Shown here: positions 5,199 through 19,849 of the stretch, piece after piece | Layout: each line of letters opens with the position of its first letter | Numbering within the stretch: position 1 is the first letter of the stretch | Source of the DNA: a virus | Virus record (IMG/VR): IMGVR_UViG_3300032242_000307 | Coordinates: 1-23,606 of that record | Direction: 5' to 3' (one strand) | DNA length: 23,606 bases | The notes under the pieces: generated by a model | What the model saw: the letters and a program-made list of their open reading frames with translations, nothing else | Database searches by the model: none | Told to the model about the DNA's origin: nothing | Made by a program: the position numbers and the translations under genes

Positions 5199-7660
5199 TG
5201 TCAGCACAAGTCTCCATTACCCAATTACCAGCCGCCGGCACTATCACAGGTGCTGAGGCGGTTCCAATCGTCCAAAACGGGGTCACAGTACGCACGACTA
5301 CGGCCGCTATTGCCGGCTCGCCAAGTCAAACCCAGACCTTTTTGACGGTCAATCAAGAGCCAACCCTGCCAAACAGCCGCTATGTCGGTGTGACAAACGG
5401 TTTATCCATCACCGACGCAGGCGCTCAGGGCCTCTTTAATATTACAACCACAGGCGCTTTGCTGTCTTTGGTGAACTCAGGTACTGGCTTTCAGGTAAAA
5501 ACGTCTTCTACGGCCATTACAGGCCGCTCTATCGCGGTTGCAAACGCTGGTTTATCCATTTCTAATGGAGATGGTATTGCTGGCAACCCAACAATTACAC
5601 TTGCTGGCCAAGTTGCCAACTTTGCCAACGCTAGTTTCAACAGTTTTGTTGTTTTAAAGAGCGACGGATCGGTAACTTCAACCACTTTGGTCGGTACAAG
5701 CAACCAAATCAACATTGCAAACCCAACTGGAATTGGAAATCCTACATTTACCATTGCTGATAACGCAATATTGCCCGGCACTGGGTCTGTAACCGTTCCA
5801 AAAGGCACAACAAGCCAGCAACCTTCAGTCCCGCAAATAGGTATGTTCCGTTATGACACCACTTTAGGTGGTTTCTACGGCTATTCTGGCGGCTCTTGGA
5901 GGCAGTTTTCGCTGTCTGGTGGTGTTACCGAGATTGATACAGGCACTGGCCTTACTGGCGGCCCTATTTTTGGTATTGGCACGATTTCAATTGCCAATAC
6001 AGCAGTCACCGCAGGAACTTACGGCAACTCTACCAACGTCGCCCAGTTCACCGTCAACGGCCAAGGTCAACTGACTTTTGCCGGGAACGTCGCCATCAGC
6101 GCATCATCCATCGGTGCGGTGACCTCTGTTTTGGGTACGGCCAATGAGATTACAGCAACTGGAACAACTGTTGTCACTTTGTCCTTGCCGACTGCTTTGA
6201 CCTTTACCGGCAAAACCGTTACCGGTGGCACATTCACTGGCACAACCGTAACCGGCGCAACTCAGACCGGCGGAACAATCAACAACACGCCTATTGGCGG
6301 AACAACTGCCAGCAGTGGTGCATTTACTACCCTGACGGCATCCTCCAGTGCCAGCGTTGCCGGTGATACTGTTGCGACCCTGACTGCGGCACAGACATTG
6401 ACCAACAAGTCAATGAGCGGTTCTAGCAACACTTTTACAAACATCCCTAACTCAGCGTTGACAAACAACTCAATCACGCTGGGAACGACCACAATTGCCC
6501 TTGGTGGCACGTCTTTGACGCCTGCTGGTTTGACTTCTGTCACTGTGACGCAAGACCCTACACAAGCCTTGCAATTGACCACAAAGCAATACGTTGATGC
6601 TGTTGCATCTAACGTAAACTATCACGCCGCTTGTAACTATGCGACTACGGCTGACTTAGGTTCTGTAACATACAACAACGGTTCATCAGGTGTTGGTGCG
6701 ACGATTACCAAAACATCGCCTTTTGCAACCCTATCTATTGACGGTGGTAGCCCAACCGTTGGCCAGCGTATCCTTGTTAAAAACGAGACTAGCGGCCAAT
6801 ACAACGGTATTTATACGGTAACCAGCGTTGGTTCTGGTTCAACTGCATGGGTTTTAACTCGTGCAACTGACTACGATCAAACAGGTACTGGGGCTAACGA
6901 AATTGCACCGGGCGATACCACATATATTGTCAGCGGTACGATTAACGCCTCTACACAGTGGGTGCAAACCACTGATTTGCCTATTGTTATTGGTACAACT
7001 CCAATAAATTTTGTGCAGATTGGTGGCCCCGGTGCTTACACCGCTGGTACAGGACTTACCTTAACCGGTACACAGTTCAGCATTACCAACACTGCTGTAA
7101 CCGCAGGATCGTATGGTTCTGCAACTCAGGTTGGCACGTTTACTGTAAACGCACAAGGTCAACTAACGCTGGCCGGTAACACAACAGTAACCCCAGCGGT
7201 AACCTCGATTACCGGTCTTGGTACTGGTGTTGCAACGGCTTTGGCTGTCAACGTCGGCTCTGCTGGCGCTTTTGTCACCTATAACGGTGCTTTGGGTACT
7301 CCATCAAGCGGTACTGTGACCAACTTGACTGGTACTGCCTCGATCAACATCAACGGTACTGTCGGTGCAACAACACCAAACACCGGCGCTTTCACGACAA
7401 TTTCAGCAACCGGTGTTATCACTTCTACCGTGGCGACTGGTACGGCTCCATTTACCGTTGCATCAACCACTGCGGTGGCTAATTTAACTTCAACAAATGC
7501 GGTCAACACAGGCACAACGGCAAACTCTACGAACGCGACAAACTATCTTATTTTTAAGAGCGCTACTAGTGGAAATCTGCCTGAATTGGTAAACTCATCA
7601 ATAACTTGCAATCCCTCAACTGGCGCTATAACAGGCGGGATTTCTGGAGGAACATTCTAA
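5198..7660 (+). CDS. Large tail fibre protein
   Basis: An 820-residue protein, highly Thr/Gly/Ala/Ser-rich, made of repeating beta modules typical of phage tail fibres. Recognisable pieces: an N-terminal SITQLPAAGTITGAEAVP attachment-like segment; a GMFRYDTTLGGFYGYSGGSW module near residues 214-233; two copies of an NTAVTAG(T/S)YG...FTVN(G/A)QGQLT(F/L)AGN block starting near residues 267 and 631; a TPIGGTTASSGAFTTL motif near 364 and a related one near 725; TKQYVDAV near 463-470; and a 472-608 region with GQRILVKNETSGQYNGIYTV and AWVLTRATDYD. All are common fibre modules. The C-terminus is GGISGGTF. It probably forms a trimeric fibre contacting the host. ATG 5198 overlaps the previous stop (TAATG). 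Confidence 0.85.
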   Translation: MSAQVSITQLPAAGTITGAEAVPIVQNGVTVRTTTAAIAGSPSQTQTFLTVNQEPTLPNSRYVGVTNGLSITDAGAQGLFNITTTGALLSLVNSGTGFQVKTSSTAITGRSIAVANAGLSISNGDGIAGNPTITLAGQVANFANASFNSFVVLKSDGSVTSTTLVGTSNQINIANPTGIGNPTFTIADNAILPGTGSVTVPKGTTSQQPSVPQIGMFRYDTTLGGFYGYSGGSWRQFSLSGGVTEIDTGTGLTGGPIFGIGTISIANTAVTAGTYGNSTNVAQFTVNGQGQLTFAGNVAISASSIGAVTSVLGTANEITATGTTVVTLSLPTALTFTGKTVTGGTFTGTTVTGATQTGGTINNTPIGGTTASSGAFTTLTASSSASVAGDTVATLTAAQTLTNKSMSGSSNTFTNIPNSALTNNSITLGTTTIALGGTSLTPAGLTSVTVTQDPTQALQLTTKQYVDAVASNVNYHAACNYATTADLGSVTYNNGSSGVGATITKTSPFATLSIDGGSPTVGQRILVKNETSGQYNGIYTVTSVGSGSTAWVLTRATDYDQTGTGANEIAPGDTTYIVSGTINASTQWVQTTDLPIVIGTTPINFVQIGGPGAYTAGTGLTLTGTQFSITNTAVTAGSYGSATQVGTFTVNAQGQLTLAGNTTVTPAVTSITGLGTGVATALAVNVGSAGAFVTYNGALGTPSSGTVTNLTGTASININGTVGATTPNTGAFTTISATGVITSTVATGTAPFTVASTTAVANLTSTNAVNTGTTANSTNATNYLIFKSATSGNLPELVNSSITCNPSTGAITGGISGGTF

Positions 7661-8907: not shown

Positions 8908-9651
8908 ATGGCTTCTATAGTCTCAGCAGGAACAACCAGCGCAACGGCGCTGAACATGAGTGCAGACACCTCTGGTATTTTGCAACTTGCAACTAACAAT
9001 GGCACAGTGGCTGTAACCATTGACACAAGTCAGCGATTAGGCATAGGAACTAGCCCTACTGCCCCTTTGACAGTAAGCAGTGCCGCTGGTGGAAATGTGG
9101 CTCAATTCACCAATGTGTCTAGTGCGGACTTAAATATCAATTTAACTGCTGGCGTTACATTACTTACTCCGTCTACAGGTATTTTGGCTTTTGGTACTTC
9201 TACTACAGAGCGTATGCGTATTGACACTAATGGCAGGGTCAACATCAACTCAACATCAAATCTTGGCGGTATTCTCCAAGTTAACGGAAACATTGCTCCG
9301 ACAGCCTCGGCTTCTTCATATTGGGGTATTGATTTTGGAACATCCACAAGTGCAGGAAGTTATGTAACTTTGGCATATGGCGCAACTTATGACATGGCTG
9401 GTGGTGCTGGTTTCCTTTGGATTTATGAGCAGTCTAGTAGTGTTGGACTTTGTTTAGTCAATTGTGCATATGGTGGCACATATATTGTGAGCAACCCTCA
9501 AAACAACTTTAGCACAACTGTAAATACTGCTTCAAAAACAAATGTTTACTATAACGCTGGTACAGGAACTTACCGAATTCAAAATCTTTCTAGTTCTCCA
9601 ACAACCTATAGTTATTGGATTGCATCAATGCGTATAAGACAAAGTGCATAA
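8908..9651 (+). CDS. Tail fibre protein (cassette 1)
   Basis: A 247-residue fibre starting at ATG 8908 with AGAGGA upstream. The N-terminus MASIVSAGTTSATALNM followed by DTSGILQLATNNGTVAV is shared in style with the next fibre gene (9861) and probably anchors the protein to a common site. A repeat-like GIGTSPTAPLTV and ERMRIDTNGRVNIN occupy residues about 48-115. From about residue 120 the C-terminal half (YWGIDFGT, GFLWIYEQSSS, YWIASMRIRQ) is a distinct beta domain that is probably the receptor-binding tip. Its fold is not recognised. It is followed after eight bases by a 65-residue ORF, forming a fibre-plus-small-protein pair. Confidence 0.75.
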   Translation: MASIVSAGTTSATALNMSADTSGILQLATNNGTVAVTIDTSQRLGIGTSPTAPLTVSSAAGGNVAQFTNVSSADLNINLTAGVTLLTPSTGILAFGTSTTERMRIDTNGRVNINSTSNLGGILQVNGNIAPTASASSYWGIDFGTSTSAGSYVTLAYGATYDMAGGAGFLWIYEQSSSVGLCLVNCAYGGTYIVSNPQNNFSTTVNTASKTNVYYNAGTGTYRIQNLSSSPTTYSYWIASMRIRQSA

Positions 9652-9860: not shown

Positions 9861-10673
9861 ATGGCATCAATCATCAACGCATCCTCATCTGGTAGCGGTG
9901 GCATCGTACAGACTGCTGACGCTTCTGGTGTATTGCAACTTCAGTCAAATGGTACGGTTGCATTGAGCATTAGCGGTGCGAATGTGACTCTTTCTGGAAC
10001 AGTTACCACTGGGCCAATTAGTCTTTCCACTGCGAATGGCAGTATGGCGACTTTCAACTCCACCAACGCAAATGGTGGTTACATAGGGGTGCAAACTTCT
10101 GGTGTTGCGGTTGGTTATGTCGGAGCGTCCGCTCAACTAGGTGGCGGTGGTAATAATTTAGATATGGCTTTGCGTGCTGACGCAAATTTGTATTTAGTTT
10201 CCTATGGTTCTGCTAAATATGCAAAATTGGACACGAATGGCTATTTGCTAACTCCATATCAACCCGCATTTTATGCTACACGCAGTGCATCAACAACGGT
10301 TGCAAGTGGAGCGGCTGTACTATTTGATAGTGTGCCTTTAAATCAAGGAAGTGGCTACAACTCCGCAACTGGTAGGTTTACTGCGCCAGTTGCAGGAACT
10401 TATCATTTTTCCTCTGTTATTCTTGCTCAAAGTTTAAGCCCCGGTGATAATTGTGAATGGGGTATTGTGAACCAATCAGGCACTGGAGCCTTAATGGGTC
10501 GAATGACTTACCAAGTAAATTACACAGGTTCTGGGGGGTATATGTGGTCTTGTGGTTCGGTAACCTATTACATGAGCGCAGGTGATTATTTTTATATAAG
10601 CAACAACTCTGGTGCGACTAGAACTATAAATAACACGGCTTGGGTAAATTTCTCTGGATTTTTAATTGGTTAA
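9861..10673 (+). CDS. Tail fibre with C-terminal C1q-like domain (cassette 2)
   Basis: This 270-residue protein carries the N-terminal pattern MASIINASSSG...ADASGVLQLQSNGTVALSI, similar to the preceding fibre, then a short beta shaft. Residues about 134-270 have the hallmarks of a C1q/TNF-like jelly-roll. These are an aromatic-rich first strand (PAFYATRSAS), VLFDSVPLNQGSGYNSATGRFTAP followed by VAGTYHFS, and a C-terminal SAGDYFYISNN then WVNFSGFLIG. C1q folds form trimers, which suits a fibre tip. It would act extracellularly as a receptor-binding head. The start is supported by CAAGGAGC about ten bases upstream. The C1q assignment rests on motif order rather than a profile search. Confidence 0.75.
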   Translation: MASIINASSSGSGGIVQTADASGVLQLQSNGTVALSISGANVTLSGTVTTGPISLSTANGSMATFNSTNANGGYIGVQTSGVAVGYVGASAQLGGGGNNLDMALRADANLYLVSYGSAKYAKLDTNGYLLTPYQPAFYATRSASTTVASGAAVLFDSVPLNQGSGYNSATGRFTAPVAGTYHFSSVILAQSLSPGDNCEWGIVNQSGTGALMGRMTYQVNYTGSGGYMWSCGSVTYYMSAGDYFYISNNSGATRTINNTAWVNFSGFLIG

Positions 10674-10960: not shown

Positions 10961-11794
10961 ATGACACTCATCCTTCAAGGAACAGACAACAGCGTATCGT
11001 CCCCAGCGGTGCAAGGTGGTACTGCTGGCACTACGACTGGTGTGTATTACCCAGCAAGCAATCAAGTTGCTTTGGCGACCAATGGCACTTTGGCTTTAGT
11101 TGTAAATTCAAGCCAAGCGGTCGGTGTTGGAATTTCAAATCCTACTACTAAACTTCATGTGGCAGGAGGTGTTGTTAGAAGTTCAAATACCGCAAATACA
11201 ACTTATTGTGAATTGCAAAATGATGGTATTTACGGAGGTGGTAATTTATACATTCTTGCACCCGCATCTTCGGGTATATATACATATGCAAATAACACGC
11301 TTTCAACAACTTTGAGTACAGCAGGCAATCTTACTTTTAATCAATCTAACGCTGGCATTGTATTCAACAACTCATCAGCATCGGTTGCATCTACGCTAAA
11401 TGATTATGAGACTGGTACTTGGTCACCTGCTATTACTGGTGCATCTTCTTACGGTCAAAGAATTGGAACATATACAAAAATAGGAAATATGGTTTATGCC
11501 ATGTTTATTTTGGTTGGGCCAATAGGTGGTTCTCCATCAGGAAACACAATAAATGGATTGCCTTTTATTTCATCTAGTTCGTTAGGAACATTACGATGGT
11601 CTGGCAGTATTGCCAATTCACAAAATATTAGTTCTGGTGGAACTGCTTTACAAATAGAAGTAGCCAATTCAACATCATCTATATCAATGTATGGTTTTAA
11701 CAACGCCGCAGGTTATGGAACTGTGAACATGGCATCAGGTTCTAGCGGTGGTTCTTGGTTCATTCAGGGTCATGTTATATATCAAGCATTCTAA
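10961..11794 (+). CDS. Tail fibre protein (cassette 3)
   Basis: A 277-residue fibre from ATG 10961 with AGGGG at 10948-10952. The N-terminal third (TGVYYPASNQVALATNGTLAL, GVGISNPTTKLHVAGG) is a common shaft module. Residues about 145-277 begin STLNDYETGTWSPAI, continue IGTYTKIGNMVYAMFILV and end with GGSWFIQGHVIYQAF. This is the pattern of a widespread C-terminal tip domain in phage fibres and spikes (DYE-x-G-x-W-x-P ... YTKIGN). Its N-terminus differs from the two preceding cassettes, so it may attach elsewhere or be a recent acquisition. Confidence 0.75.
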   Translation: MTLILQGTDNSVSSPAVQGGTAGTTTGVYYPASNQVALATNGTLALVVNSSQAVGVGISNPTTKLHVAGGVVRSSNTANTTYCELQNDGIYGGGNLYILAPASSGIYTYANNTLSTTLSTAGNLTFNQSNAGIVFNNSSASVASTLNDYETGTWSPAITGASSYGQRIGTYTKIGNMVYAMFILVGPIGGSPSGNTINGLPFISSSSLGTLRWSGSIANSQNISSGGTALQIEVANSTSSISMYGFNNAAGYGTVNMASGSSGGSWFIQGHVIYQAF

Positions 11795-12340: not shown

Positions 12341-12556
12341 ATGGACGGGGTTGAAGAATTGGCTACCGAAACGGACAAGCGTTTAAGCGTTCACGAAGCG
12401 ATCTGCGCAAGTCGTTACGAGAGCATTCAAGCCCGTTTTGATGATGGTTCCAAGCGCATGACCAAGATTGAATACCTTTTGTATGTAGTCATCTTGGCTG
12501 TGTTGCTTGGCCCCGGCGTTGCGGCTGATATTGTCAAGAAGGTACTTGGAATATGA
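12341..12556 (+). CDS. Single-TM small membrane protein, lysis region (holin-like)
   Basis: A 71-residue protein from ATG 12341. The N-terminal 40 residues are charged and helical (ELATETDKRLSVHEAI, SIQARFDDGSKRMTKIE). One transmembrane helix covers about residues 44-62 (YLLYVVILAVLLGPGVAA), with a short basic tail. The layout, an N-terminal coiled region then a TM helix, recalls XhlA-type lysis accessory proteins and small holins. It begins a run of four small membrane or membrane-associated proteins that ends in an endolysin, which supports a lysis role. It overlaps the next gene as ATGA. Confidence 0.6.
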   Translation: MDGVEELATETDKRLSVHEAICASRYESIQARFDDGSKRMTKIEYLLYVVILAVLLGPGVAADIVKKVLGI

Positions 12557-12813
12557 ATTTACAAGATGTTCTTAAAGCCTTATTGCCAATCCTTGTTGCT
12601 TGCATTGGATGGCTCTTGAGTGAAGTAAGTTCATTCCAAACTCGTTTGACTCAAATTGAAGGCAAGATGCCTGCTTTGATTACAACCGATGGCGTGCCTA
12701 CTGATAGCCCCATTTCGGCTGAACGCAGAAATATTTTGCGTAGAGAATTAGAAAAAGAACTTGTTGATATGCAAGTGCGTGTGCGTTTACTTGAAGAAAA
12801 AATAAAAAAATGA
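12553..12813 (+). CDS. TM plus coiled-coil protein, lysis region
   Basis: This 86-residue protein has an N-terminal hydrophobic helix, about residues 5-24 (DVLKALLPILVACIGWLLSE). It is followed by FQTRLTQIEGKMPALI, a conserved-looking DGVPTDSPISAERR linker, and a C-terminal charged coiled coil (RELEKELVDMQVRVRLLEEKIKK). An N-terminal TM with a periplasmic coiled coil is the layout of an i-spanin (Rz-like), although spanins are usually longer. It could equally be a holin partner. The start overlaps the previous stop (ATGA) and its stop overlaps the next start, so translation is coupled. Confidence 0.55.
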   Translation: MNLQDVLKALLPILVACIGWLLSEVSSFQTRLTQIEGKMPALITTDGVPTDSPISAERRNILRRELEKELVDMQVRVRLLEEKIKK

Positions 12814-13372
12814 TTGATCCCGTATCGGCATTTGCAATGGCTCAGGCCGCAATTGCCGGGGTCAGAAAATGCGTTGATCTTTATAAAGAGGCCAAGTCTG
12901 TGGCGGCTGATGTGACAGAAATTACATCAGAAGTAACCACTCACATTGGCACCTTTCTTGAGGCTAAAGAAACCTTAGAGATTGCAACTGAAGAGGCTAA
13001 GAAAAAACCGCCTCCAAAAGGTTACAGCCTTAACAAAATTGCTTTTGACAACATTATTCGTGTTCGTCAATTGCAGGAGCAGGAAAGAGAATTGCGCGAA
13101 TTCATGATTTATCAGACCCCCGGGTGGGGCAGTATATGGAGTGAGTTTGAAGAAGAGAGGGCAAGGCTCAGAAAGGAGCAAGAGGTTGCCGAGCAAGAGG
13201 CAAAAAAGCCGCTAGGCTGGCGTCTTACAAAAGACGTCAACTTATTGAGAAGTATCAAGTCAGAGTTGTCGTCTTGGTTGCCGTCCTCATCTTGGTTCTT
13301 GAGTTTGTCGGTTTGATGTACTGGGTACACAATGATTATCAGTCACGCAAATATCATTTGGAGAGTAAGTAA
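12810..13372 (+). CDS. Coiled-coil protein with candidate -1 frameshift to a membrane-anchored form
   Basis: ATG 12810 opens a frame that by itself stops at 13316 (168 residues). The N-terminus MIDPVSAFAMAQAAIAGVRK resembles a family of phage proteins with a C-terminal membrane helix. The centre is charged coiled coil (RQLQEQERELREFM, EEERARLRKEQEVAEQEAKK). At 13202-13208 an in-phase A AAA AAG occurs. A -1 shift there yields 133 + 54 residues (187 total) ending at TAA 13370-13372. The new tail has a clear TM segment (VRVVVLVAVLILVLEFVGLM) and a charged end. The unshifted tail is Ser-rich with no membrane helix. The shifted stop directly abuts the next ATG, as expected for the real gene end here. 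The -1 frame has no ATG, GTG or TTG before the slippery site after its stop at 13148-13150. A base-call error in the A6 run is the alternative. Confidence 0.7.
13202..13239 (+). promoter_or_regulatory. Candidate -1 programmed frameshift signal
   Basis: The heptamer A AAA AAG (13202-13208) is in the exact X XXY YYZ phase of the frame starting at 12810 (codons GCA AAA AAG). After a 9-base spacer (13209-13217) comes a 9-bp hairpin: TGGCGTCTT (13218-13226) pairs with AAGACGTCA (13231-13239), with one G-U, around an ACAA loop. This is the same heptamer used by bacterial dnaX and several IS elements, with the usual spacing to a downstream structure. No strongly placed upstream Shine-Dalgarno-like stimulator is seen; AAGGAG at 13173-13178 lies rather far upstream. 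Confidence 0.75.
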
Positions 13373-13876
13373 ATGAGTTGGTTAGAACAAGTTGCCCCAA
13401 CAATTGCTACGGCCCTTGGCGGGCCATTGGCTGGCCTTGCTGTTGAGGCAGTCTCCAAGGCTATAGGTGTTTCCACTGAAGATGCAAAAGAATTGATGGA
13501 CACCGGAAAGATGTCTGCCGATCAAATTGCACAAGTCAAGGTGGCTGAAATTGAACTACAAAAACAAGCGCAGGCTCTTGGTCTTAACTTTGAACAGTTG
13601 GCCGTGGACGACAGAAAGAGCGCTAGAGAGATGCAAACCTCTACTCATAGCATTATTCCTCCTGTTCTTAGCATTCTTGTTACTGCCGGGTTTTTTGGTA
13701 TTTTGGCTTATCTTATGGTCAAGCCAGCAGATACTGGAAATACACCCCTGATGATCATGCTGGGTTCTTTGGGAACAGCATGGACAGGAATTATTGCTTT
13801 TTACTTTGGGTCTTCTGCCGGTAGTCAGGCTAAAGACAAAATGATTTTTAACTCAACACCGATGGACAAAAAATGA
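13373..13876 (+). CDS. Holin-like membrane protein (3TM holin family type)
   Basis: A 167-residue protein. Its N-terminus VAPTIATALGGPLAGLAVEAVSKAIG is a hydrophobic, glycine-containing helix. A soluble helical middle follows (MSADQIAQVKVAEIELQKQAQ, then DDRKSAREM). Two C-terminal membrane helices lie at about residues 94-116 (PPVLSILVTAGFFGILAYLM) and 126-147 (MIMLGSLGTAWTGIIAFYFG), and the end is SSAGSQAKDKM. LG(T/A)AW and YYFGSSAGSKAK-type endings are typical of phage holins of the GTA/3TM class. Its function would be to form the inner-membrane lesion that releases the endolysin. The start is immediately after the -1 frame stop of the upstream gene, and the stop overlaps the endolysin start (ATGA). 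Confidence 0.85.
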   Translation: MSWLEQVAPTIATALGGPLAGLAVEAVSKAIGVSTEDAKELMDTGKMSADQIAQVKVAEIELQKQAQALGLNFEQLAVDDRKSAREMQTSTHSIIPPVLSILVTAGFFGILAYLMVKPADTGNTPLMIMLGSLGTAWTGIIAFYFGSSAGSQAKDKMIFNSTPMDKK

Positions 13877-14292
13877 TTAACTCAAGAAGTCTTGATGATC
13901 TAATTCCACAGGCCAGAGAGCGTGTAGATAAGTTCATTGCTCTATGCAAGGAGAATGGCATTGATCTTTTGGTTACGTCAACTTATCGCGATATGGAGTC
14001 GCAGACTGTACTTTATAACCAAGGACGCACAGCGCCGGGAAAGATTGTCACGAATGCTCATGCTGGTGAGTCTTTTCATAATTATCGTTGTGCAGTGGAT
14101 GTGGTGCCTCTGGTTAATGGAAAGCCTCAATGGGACGGTTCCGACCCCGTCTGGGCTAAAGTGGGTGAGTTAGGTAAGCAGGCTGGCCTTGAGTGGGCCG
14201 GAGAATGGCATTCATTCAAGGAATTGGCTCATTTTCAGTACACAGGCGGTTTGACCATAGCGCAATTAAAGTCTGGAACTGCTATTGCTTAG
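13873..14292 (+). CDS. Endolysin, M15-type peptidase (VanY/L-Ala-D-Glu peptidase-like)
   Basis: A 139-residue zinc peptidase that would cut peptidoglycan stem peptides. Visible motifs are LVTSTYRD and a QTVLYNQGRT segment (residues 33-53), SFHNYRCAVD (67-76) and LAHFQY (118-123). By the family pattern the zinc ligands are His69, Asp76 and His120, with Glu117 or a neighbouring acidic residue as catalytic base; the H-x6-D spacing is intact. The length is close to the single-domain T5-type endolysin. There is no signal peptide, so it needs the holin just upstream. ATG 13873 overlaps the holin stop. The substitution of Arg-Cys in HNYRCAVD, where many members have a small-residue pair, is a minor variation. 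Confidence 0.9.
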   Translation: MINSRSLDDLIPQARERVDKFIALCKENGIDLLVTSTYRDMESQTVLYNQGRTAPGKIVTNAHAGESFHNYRCAVDVVPLVNGKPQWDGSDPVWAKVGELGKQAGLEWAGEWHSFKELAHFQYTGGLTIAQLKSGTAIA

Positions 14293-18206: not shown

Positions 18207-18456
18207 CACTGCGCCCCTTGTTGACCCCCGCTTTATGGAGTTTCCAGAGTGGGCGTCACGGATGTGCGAGCAATTTGCAACCCAGCAGTTGGAAATACCT
18301 GATGAGCGAACCGATTGGAAAAGTTGGGCTACCGGCTTGATTGCTATAGACTTGTTTGTAAACGAAGGAATACCTGACCCAACGGTTTTTAATGACTGGC
18401 ATGAGTGGGCAGAGGTTCTGGTTCTGACAGTCAACTTGAGGCAACCGCAGACATGA
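18175..18456 (+). CDS. Small conserved phage protein, unknown
   Basis: 93 residues from ATG 18175. A GTG at 18196 (86 residues), with only 11 bases of overlap with the hub gene, is an equally plausible start, and neither has a clear ribosome binding site. The conserved-looking core is NTAPLVDPRFMEFPEWASRM, then TDWKSWATGLIAID, NEGIPDPTVFNDWHEWAEVL and a C-terminal LVLTVNLR. It is Trp- and acid-rich, helical, soluble and without known motif. It sits between the hub gene and the ACP gene and overlaps the latter as ATGA, so it is in the same translation unit. A small structural or assembly role is possible, but function is unknown. Confidence 0.6.
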   Translation: MATTVTFVAINTAPLVDPRFMEFPEWASRMCEQFATQQLEIPDERTDWKSWATGLIAIDLFVNEGIPDPTVFNDWHEWAEVLVLTVNLRQPQT

Positions 18457-18740
18457 TAGATTTTCTTGACTTATTTAACGCCGTGGCCAAAGTAGCCAGA
18501 CCAATTCATTTTGAAGAGACCAAAGCCACCTCAATGGAAGACACCTTTGAGGACTTGGGAATTGATAGTCTCGACGGTTTGGTGATGCTGATGTATATGC
18601 AGGAAATATACGGCATTGCAGAAGATGATGAGACCAAAGAATGGGCGCCAAAGACAGTGCAAGAGTTGTATGACTTGCTGATGTCAAGAAAGACGCAAGA
18701 GCCTGATTCCCTTGAGCAGGTTTTAAAGGCCATCAAATGA
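18453..18740 (+). CDS. Acyl carrier protein
   Basis: A 95-residue acidic helical protein with the acyl carrier signature DLGIDSLDGLVMLMYMQEIYGI. Ser39 in GIDSLD is the expected 4'-phosphopantetheine attachment site, followed by the helix II recognition segment. Length and acidity match bacterial ACPs (about 75-90 residues), with a slightly longer C-terminal tail (residues 80-95, ending LEQVLKAIK). ATG 18453 overlaps the upstream stop (ATGA), and its TGA overlaps the ketosynthase start (ATGA), which implies coupled expression. No phosphopantetheinyl transferase is seen in the window, so a host enzyme would have to activate it. It would carry acyl groups for the adjacent synthase. An ACP among tail genes is unusual; it is not a host contamination edge because both flanks are phage-like. 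Confidence 0.85.
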   Translation: MIDFLDLFNAVAKVARPIHFEETKATSMEDTFEDLGIDSLDGLVMLMYMQEIYGIAEDDETKEWAPKTVQELYDLLMSRKTQEPDSLEQVLKAIK

Positions 18741-19849
18741 AGATGTATTTGACTCATTACCGGACAGCCTCCACGACGGACGTTGAATTATTTGACGACG
18801 TTGTCTACCCCCAGAAGGTTCACTGGTTCCCAGATACTTATGCAAGAGCAAAGTCTGGGCTTTTTTATGTCCCGCACAAGTTGGCCGAAAAAGTCCTAGA
18901 CCCTGATTTATGCACCTACTTGCGCGAGCATCCAGTTAACAAGACCGCCTTCATTCTTGCTGGTGGTAACGCTCATTTTGCTGGTATCGGCCCACGGCAC
19001 TACGACAACCGTCTGTCCTACGTGTACAAGTTCATGCCGTTTAGTCTGACGCAAGTCTATGCCGGCCGGACGGCTCAATCTTTTGGCGAGATGGATTTGG
19101 TGCAAACCGACGCCTCTGCCTGCGCATCTAGCCTCAAAGTAATGATGGATGTGCAGAATCTGATGCAGTTTTATGATTTTGACCGGGTAATCGTGCTGAC
19201 TGTAGAGGATGGCGTAACGAATGCCGTACTAGAGTTTTTTGGTGAGGCTAAGGCCGTATTGACTGAAAAGCAAGAACAAGAGGGTATAAAGCCATCCGCT
19301 TTTGACTCGAAGAACTTTGGGTTCCGAATCGGTCAGGGCGCGGCTTTGGCTGTATTTGAGAATGCTTGGGCCGTAGAAAAGCAGGGGCTGATACCTCACG
19401 CCGAGTTACTGGGGGCATATAGCGCCTCTGAGGCATCAACAAACGCCATTGGGCAGTGTGAAGATGGGCAAGGCTTTAAAAAGGCGATATTGGGGGCATT
19501 AAAGTATTCCCAAACTTACGCACGTGAGATTAAAATAGTCAAAGCGCACGGGACAGGAACGGCCTCTAACAACATCGCGGAATCCACTGCGCTCAAATCC
19601 ATTATTCCAGAGTTTGTTGCCACATCTTATAAACAGAAAATTGGCCACACCATGGGTAGCAGTGGATTATTGGAATCATTGTTGTTGATAGATGACCTGA
19701 ACAAGGGCTTTGTGCCAGCGATTGAGAACCGAACTGAAACCGATTCGGTATTTCTTTCGGAATCAATGCCAAAGCCTAACGGGTTAATTTTGAGTTTAGC
19801 GGCGGGGATGGGGAACATCTACTCAGCCGCAATCTTTAAGGGGCTGTAA
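18737..19849 (+). CDS. Beta-ketoacyl-ACP synthase (FabF/KAS II-like)
   Basis: A 370-residue thiolase-fold condensing enzyme that would add two carbons from malonyl-ACP to an acyl primer. The full catalytic triad is visible: Cys129 in TDASACASSLK, His271 in KAHGTGTASN and His304 in KQKIGHTMGSSGLLE, with Lys301 close by. A KAS-like FGFRIGQGAALAVFE strand lies at about residues 194-208. It is about 40 residues shorter than FabF, mainly at the N-terminus. The C-terminal SLAAGMGNIYSAAIF corresponds to the SFGFGGTN segment of FabF, and the gatekeeper Phe of that loop appears replaced by Ala in a hand alignment. The start is the ATGA overlap with the ACP gene. The neighbours suggest a dedicated acyl pathway. 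Function is well supported; substrate is unknown. Confidence 0.88.
   Translation: MKMYLTHYRTASTTDVELFDDVVYPQKVHWFPDTYARAKSGLFYVPHKLAEKVLDPDLCTYLREHPVNKTAFILAGGNAHFAGIGPRHYDNRLSYVYKFMPFSLTQVYAGRTAQSFGEMDLVQTDASACASSLKVMMDVQNLMQFYDFDRVIVLTVEDGVTNAVLEFFGEAKAVLTEKQEQEGIKPSAFDSKNFGFRIGQGAALAVFENAWAVEKQGLIPHAELLGAYSASEASTNAIGQCEDGQGFKKAILGALKYSQTYAREIKIVKAHGTGTASNNIAESTALKSIIPEFVATSYKQKIGHTMGSSGLLESLLLIDDLNKGFVPAIENRTETDSVFLSESMPKPNGLILSLAAGMGNIYSAAIFKGL

Follow-up and report, generated by a model that had tools for sequence, protein, structure and literature searches.

The window analysed here is the whole 23,606-nt stretch of IMG/VR virus record IMGVR_UViG_3300032242_000307. It carries, with small membrane genes on one side and a holin-like gene plus M15 endolysin on the other, an open reading frame (ORF) whose codons GCA (13200), AAA (13203) and AAG (13206), followed by CCG, hold a heptamer of the type on which ribosomes can slip into the -1 frame (Table 1). 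Read from 13208, the -1 frame translates as AARLASYKRRQLIEKYQVR-VVVLVAVLILVLEFVGLMY-WVHNDYQSRKYHLESK and its TAA stop (13370-13372) abuts the ATG of the holin-like gene at 13373. The -1 frame offers no start codon from its last stop, 60 nt before the G of the heptamer, up to a TTG within the region encoding the transmembrane (TM) helix. An initial annotation of this DNA had proposed a -1 ribosomal frameshift that turns a soluble protein into a membrane-anchored one. Its reading of the frames is borne out: the heptamer stands in the X_XXY_YYZ phase expected for programmed -1 frameshifting, and the -1 frame lacks its own start upstream of the slip site, encodes one strong TM segment (residues 153-171 of the fusion) and ends against the next gene.

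Table 1. Coordinates of the slip site, its reading frames and the adjoining lysis genes in the window.
Feature	Position	Strand	Remarks
0-frame ORF	12810..13316	+	168 aa, of which 133 form a conserved helical head domain and 35 an unconstrained tail; predicted unanchored product
Upstream flank of slip site, last 16 codons	13161..13208	+	Reduced synonymous divergence
Slippery heptamer A_AAA_AAG	13202-13208	+	X_XXY_YYZ phase; codons GCA AAA AAG invariant (nine representatives); also in 43 other contigs
-1 frame extension	13208..13372	+	54 aa and stop, giving a predicted anchored fusion of 187 aa; overlap dN/dS 0.17
3' stimulatory hairpin (putative)	13213..13244	+	13 bp, interrupted by a single C/A mismatch; ACAA loop at 13227-13230; -14.1 kcal/mol
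TM helix of fusion	13265..13321	+	Residues 153-171, VVVLVAVLILVLEFVGLMY, after a basic segment; Kyte-Doolittle 2.85 (19 residues)
Holin-like membrane protein	13373..13876	+	PHROG 1544, without assigned function in PHROGs; 54% identity to an MW202701 protein annotated as holin
Endolysin, peptidase M15 family	13873..14292	+	PF13539; PHROG endolysins

The 0-frame product contains no comparable TM segment. The head domain (residues 1-130) matches the PHROG 32327 profile (E 7.3e-8), whereas neither Pfam, with no significant family, nor a sequence search of the PDB gave a significant match for the protein. An AlphaFold model of the homologue in L023 is all-helical (pLDDT 84.5, pTM 0.54) and matches only unnamed phage proteins; syntaxin-like PDB structures were dropped as not significant (E ≥ 0.35). 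The fusion would be a tail-anchored protein of the inner membrane, its head predicted to lie in the cytoplasm.

The remaining in-phase slippery heptamers of the window open mostly short extensions. Among the few long ones, those at 10646, 12804 and 18722 enter the next gene and the one at 7006 (55 aa) stays within its own gene. The heptamer at 12804-12810 (A_AAA_AAA) lies directly ahead of the stop of the upstream gene (12553-12813), whose -1 frame continues into the gene at 12810; this heptamer is probably there by chance, because the two genes are differently spaced in L004. No tRNA genes were found in the window.

Downstream of the slip site, the inner 9-bp stem (13218-13226/13231-13239) begins 9 nt past the heptamer, as had been claimed, and the hairpin is larger than that claim, with 4 further outer base pairs (13213-13216/13241-13244) that begin 4 nt past the heptamer. 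The spacing fits the 5-9 nt of the most-studied spacers, and the heptamer is followed by CC, the most favourable dinucleotide at this place (PMC5009743). A Shine-Dalgarno-like 5' stimulator, an optional element, was not recognised at the usual distance of about 10-14 nt; an AAGGAG lies ~23 nt upstream. Compared with synonymous recodings of the -1 frame, the hairpin energy is unusually low in the window (p = 0.005) and likewise in L001 (0.012), L006 (0.001), L009 (0.001), L011 (0.005), L251 (0.03) and L257 (0.02); it is borderline in L012 (p 0.06) and not significant in L004, L042 and L165. Combined over six lineages by Fisher's method, the hairpin reaches p = 3e-5, or 5e-4 without the window. 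The stems differ in sequence between lineages at similar spacing. Within one hairpin group, an alignment-based covariation analysis found one compensatory pair, a result also reached by 127 of 500 shuffles. Conservation of the hairpin in homologues thus holds in part: a 3' stimulator at typical spacing is strong in most lineages, and it is not universal across those with the slip site, because hairpins are weak or absent in L004 and L042/L165.

The heptamer itself is conserved. An identical slip site at the identical Lys-Lys position occurs in 43 other IMG/VR viral contigs, of which 25 fall into the window group, 14 into the L251 group and 4 into the L061 group; the conservation in homologues that had been proposed as a check is thus seen. 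Window-group sequences have C-A6-G at the run and those of the L251 and L061 groups A7-G, with the phase unchanged throughout, and among the relatives found none encodes the anchor in the -1 frame without the slip site. Fused products of the window group and the L251 group are 184-191 aa long; those of the L061 group have 223 aa and retain an extended C-terminus resembling that of L022 and L023. In the L061 group (L061:1503-2180), the 0 and -1 frames are both open to nearly the same end, with a 225-aa 0-frame product and a tail of ~95 aa. The 0-frame is open for ~95 codons throughout L061-L063, which was counted against the frameshift reading. A scan of genome contigs returned no relatives, and searches of phage collections with the head reached the Manatee Spring phages only, the distant member L243 being needed to reach named phages. 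Among the matches listed by a broad pattern scan, most were unrelated loci. No earlier report of the slip site was found in the part of the literature covered.

Substitutions among nine representatives separate the two frames. Upstream of the slip site, the 0-frame dN/dS of 0.08 points to strong purifying selection on the head. In the overlap (79 nt), dN/dS is 0.17 in the -1 frame vs 0.90 in the 0-frame, and the codon bootstrap of the pN/pS difference (-1 minus 0) gives a 95% interval of -0.94 to -0.27; the representatives are related and pairwise counts non-independent, so that these statistics are descriptive, although all subgroups point in the same direction. Between the window and its sister L001, the -1 frame shows 1 nonsynonymous and 11 synonymous changes, whereas the 0-frame reading would give 10.5 and 2.5. 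The corresponding ratios in the L251 group are 0.24 (-1) and 1.58 (0-frame). This pattern indicates purifying selection on the -1 frame after the slip site, and none on the 0-frame, whose tail is unconserved; the unanchored product could be useless. The codons GCA AAA AAG are invariant in the nine representatives while synonymous sites are near saturation; upstream, 8 of 64 comparable codons (degenerate, with invariant amino acid) are invariant. Synonymous differences per site fall to 0.39 in the last 16 codons (48 nt including the slip site), compared with 0.62-1.02 elsewhere. The same stretch, 13161-13208, contains a nearly invariant CTCAGRAAGGAG, too far upstream for a usual Shine-Dalgarno stimulator.

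Homologues that reach the TM helix in frame had been named as evidence against slippage. Such homologues do exist among more distant relatives, and they do not refute the frameshift. Head and TM helix share one frame, with no slip, in L022, L023, L024, L025, L045-L060 and L064-type loci as well as in L223-L243, and also in the Manatee Spring myovirus and podovirus, Limnohabitans phage DC31 and Roseobacter phage CRP-4. The C-terminal TM helix is present and aligned in the in-frame homologues examined, which makes the anchored protein the family's usual and ancestral product. On this comparison, the slip appears to be a derived way to add an unanchored form. Comparative genomics strongly supports the proposed -1 frameshift to a TM-anchored fusion and inverts its direction, the unanchored rather than the anchored form being derived. 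In the tree, the window group is a clade (99/98) separate from that of the L061 group, a placement that requires the slip to have been gained twice, or gained once and lost once.

In our preferred reading, which we consider highly likely, a -1 frameshift yields a 168-aa unanchored and a 187-aa anchored product, of which the anchored one is ancestral and the unanchored output was gained and kept. The majority of ribosomes would stay in the 0-frame and make the 168-aa protein with its last ~35 residues unconstrained. A fraction, held up by the 3' hairpin, would move back by one base on A_AAA_AAG and translate 54 further codons for a basic stretch and the TM helix, giving the 187-aa tail-anchored protein. 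Lineages with the frameshift would in this way keep a controlled output of the unanchored head beside the anchored form. The slip-site lineages are a group of freshwater phages, in which the slip is very probably real; we infer that slippage occurs and that it is ribosomal, not transcriptional.

The strongest rival is compensatory or 'savior' frameshifting, a class already described (PMC5009743), in which an indel broke an in-frame gene, slippage restores enough of the anchored protein and the 0-frame product, having no use, is broken down. The ancestry of the anchored form and the unconstrained 0-frame tail (dN/dS 0.90) suit this explanation, which we regard as possible though rather unlikely. 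A single inserted A would mend the run and fuse the frames, yet no repaired run occurs: although synonymous divergence is saturated, the slip site persists in all 44 sequences, the window included. Hairpins have been re-formed from different sequences, and upstream there is less synonymous change. Together, the absence of a repaired A-run, the rebuilt hairpins and the upstream constraint suggest selection on the slip itself, which may serve no more than to adjust how much of the anchored form is made.

Alternatively, RNA polymerase could slip on the A-run, yielding mRNAs lengthened by one A and coding for the fusion, as A6 in the window group and A7 in the two other groups could in principle allow. 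Such runs are short for slippage by bacterial polymerase. Moreover, the run always ends in G and keeps the X_XXY_YYZ phase, and the hairpins at ribosomal spacing would be needless for polymerase slippage, so that transcriptional slippage seems improbable. Separate production of the TM segment by internal or re-initiation is less probable still: L012-type sequences do have an ATG in the -1 frame directly after the heptamer, but other lineages, including the window, show no conserved -1 start between the last stop and the TM helix, on which ground an internal start was rejected, and the invariance of the heptamer would be left unexplained. Lastly, a sequencing or assembly error hiding a plain gene is hardly credible even though homopolymers are error-prone in some methods, since 43 other contigs from many metagenomes agree and the selection and 0-frame stop patterns fit two frames.

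Returning to a selected ribosomal slip, the part of the gene that carries it may have moved between heads. The heads of the L251 group and the window are only 40% identical, whereas their C-modules (anchor and slip site) are 64-70% identical. The L251 group branches outside all others in the head tree (100/100) but falls among window-group sequences in the C-module tree, which is built on only 51 columns. This discordance suggests, as its simplest reading, recombination near the slip site with slip, hairpin and anchor kept together; uneven rates may mimic part of it. We tentatively propose that slip site, hairpin and anchor are exchanged among aquatic phages as one module, which combines with different heads and sets the anchored:unanchored ratio needed at lysis or membrane take-over, an idea that we hold to be somewhat less likely than its negation. 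If it were true, phage frameshifting would here divide one protein between membrane and cytoplasm.

Several known systems resemble the locus in part. Escherichia coli dnaX (tau/gamma) likewise combines A_AAA_AAG with a 3' hairpin and makes two products from one start. It carries a 5' Shine-Dalgarno stimulator. Slippage truncates in dnaX and extends in the window, where no well-placed 5' stimulator was recognised. In E. coli copA, too, a frameshift chooses between a membrane and a soluble product (a membrane ATPase and a short soluble chaperone), but the slip gives the short soluble form there and adds the anchor here. Lambda G/GT offers a phage gene in which a -1 slip near the end of the 0-frame adds a C-terminal domain and is conserved across divergent phages; gene, position and protein differ, and a membrane anchor is added in the window instead of a tail-tube binding domain. 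The lambda tail chaperone gene lies upstream of the tape measure gene, and most annotated phage frameshifts belong to tail chaperones (PMC10885494). The gene described here has no chaperone match and no such position. Its frameshift would instead act in a lysis-region membrane protein and decide whether the anchor is made. Members of PHROG 32327, a family of unknown function, share the homologous head domain and are tail-anchored, but those matching proteins that were examined from outside the slip groups are encoded in a single frame. As a helical protein with one TM helix in a lysis region, the fusion also recalls the spanins (Rz/Rz1). Its TM helix is C-terminal and its head cytoplasmic-type, unlike the N-terminal TM helix and periplasmic coiled coil, or lipoprotein partner, of a spanin, and DC31 has a separate i-spanin-like gene beside the homologue.

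For genome annotation, a single ORF would give only the unanchored form, so that the anchor is invisible in slip-group genomes. Cultured phages with single-frame relatives (Limnohabitans phage DC31 and Roseobacter phage CRP-4) allow the roles of the two forms to be compared directly, and the rebuilt hairpins on one fixed slip site provide a natural series.

The initial annotation had placed the gene next to a holin and an endolysin; this setting in a lysis region is supported, in that the M15 endolysin stands, and its 'holin' is only holin-like (PHROG 1544). The DC31 homologue adjoins a small coiled-coil membrane protein, a two-TM protein, the i-spanin-like gene and an L-Ala-D-Glu peptidase, whereas no lysis gene is annotated beside that of CRP-4; the lysis location thus appears conserved in part. 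The surroundings of the window gene yielded no clear o-spanin. A role as ratio-controlled lysis timer or spanin regulator is speculative, as is any importance for lysis of the ratio between the two forms.

Elsewhere in the window, 12341-12556 encodes a small membrane protein with an HExxCAxRYE motif and an XhlA-like layout; the Manatee Spring myovirus and several IMG/VR loci encode a relative of it ahead of their homologue of the slip-site gene. At 18405-19849, a beta-ketoacyl synthase comes after an acyl-carrier-like protein whose Pfam match is weak and under the cut-off; together they are unusual phage cargo. The neighbouring fibre-like ORFs at 8908-9651, 9861-10673 and 10961-11794 are apparent paralogues by their N-termini.
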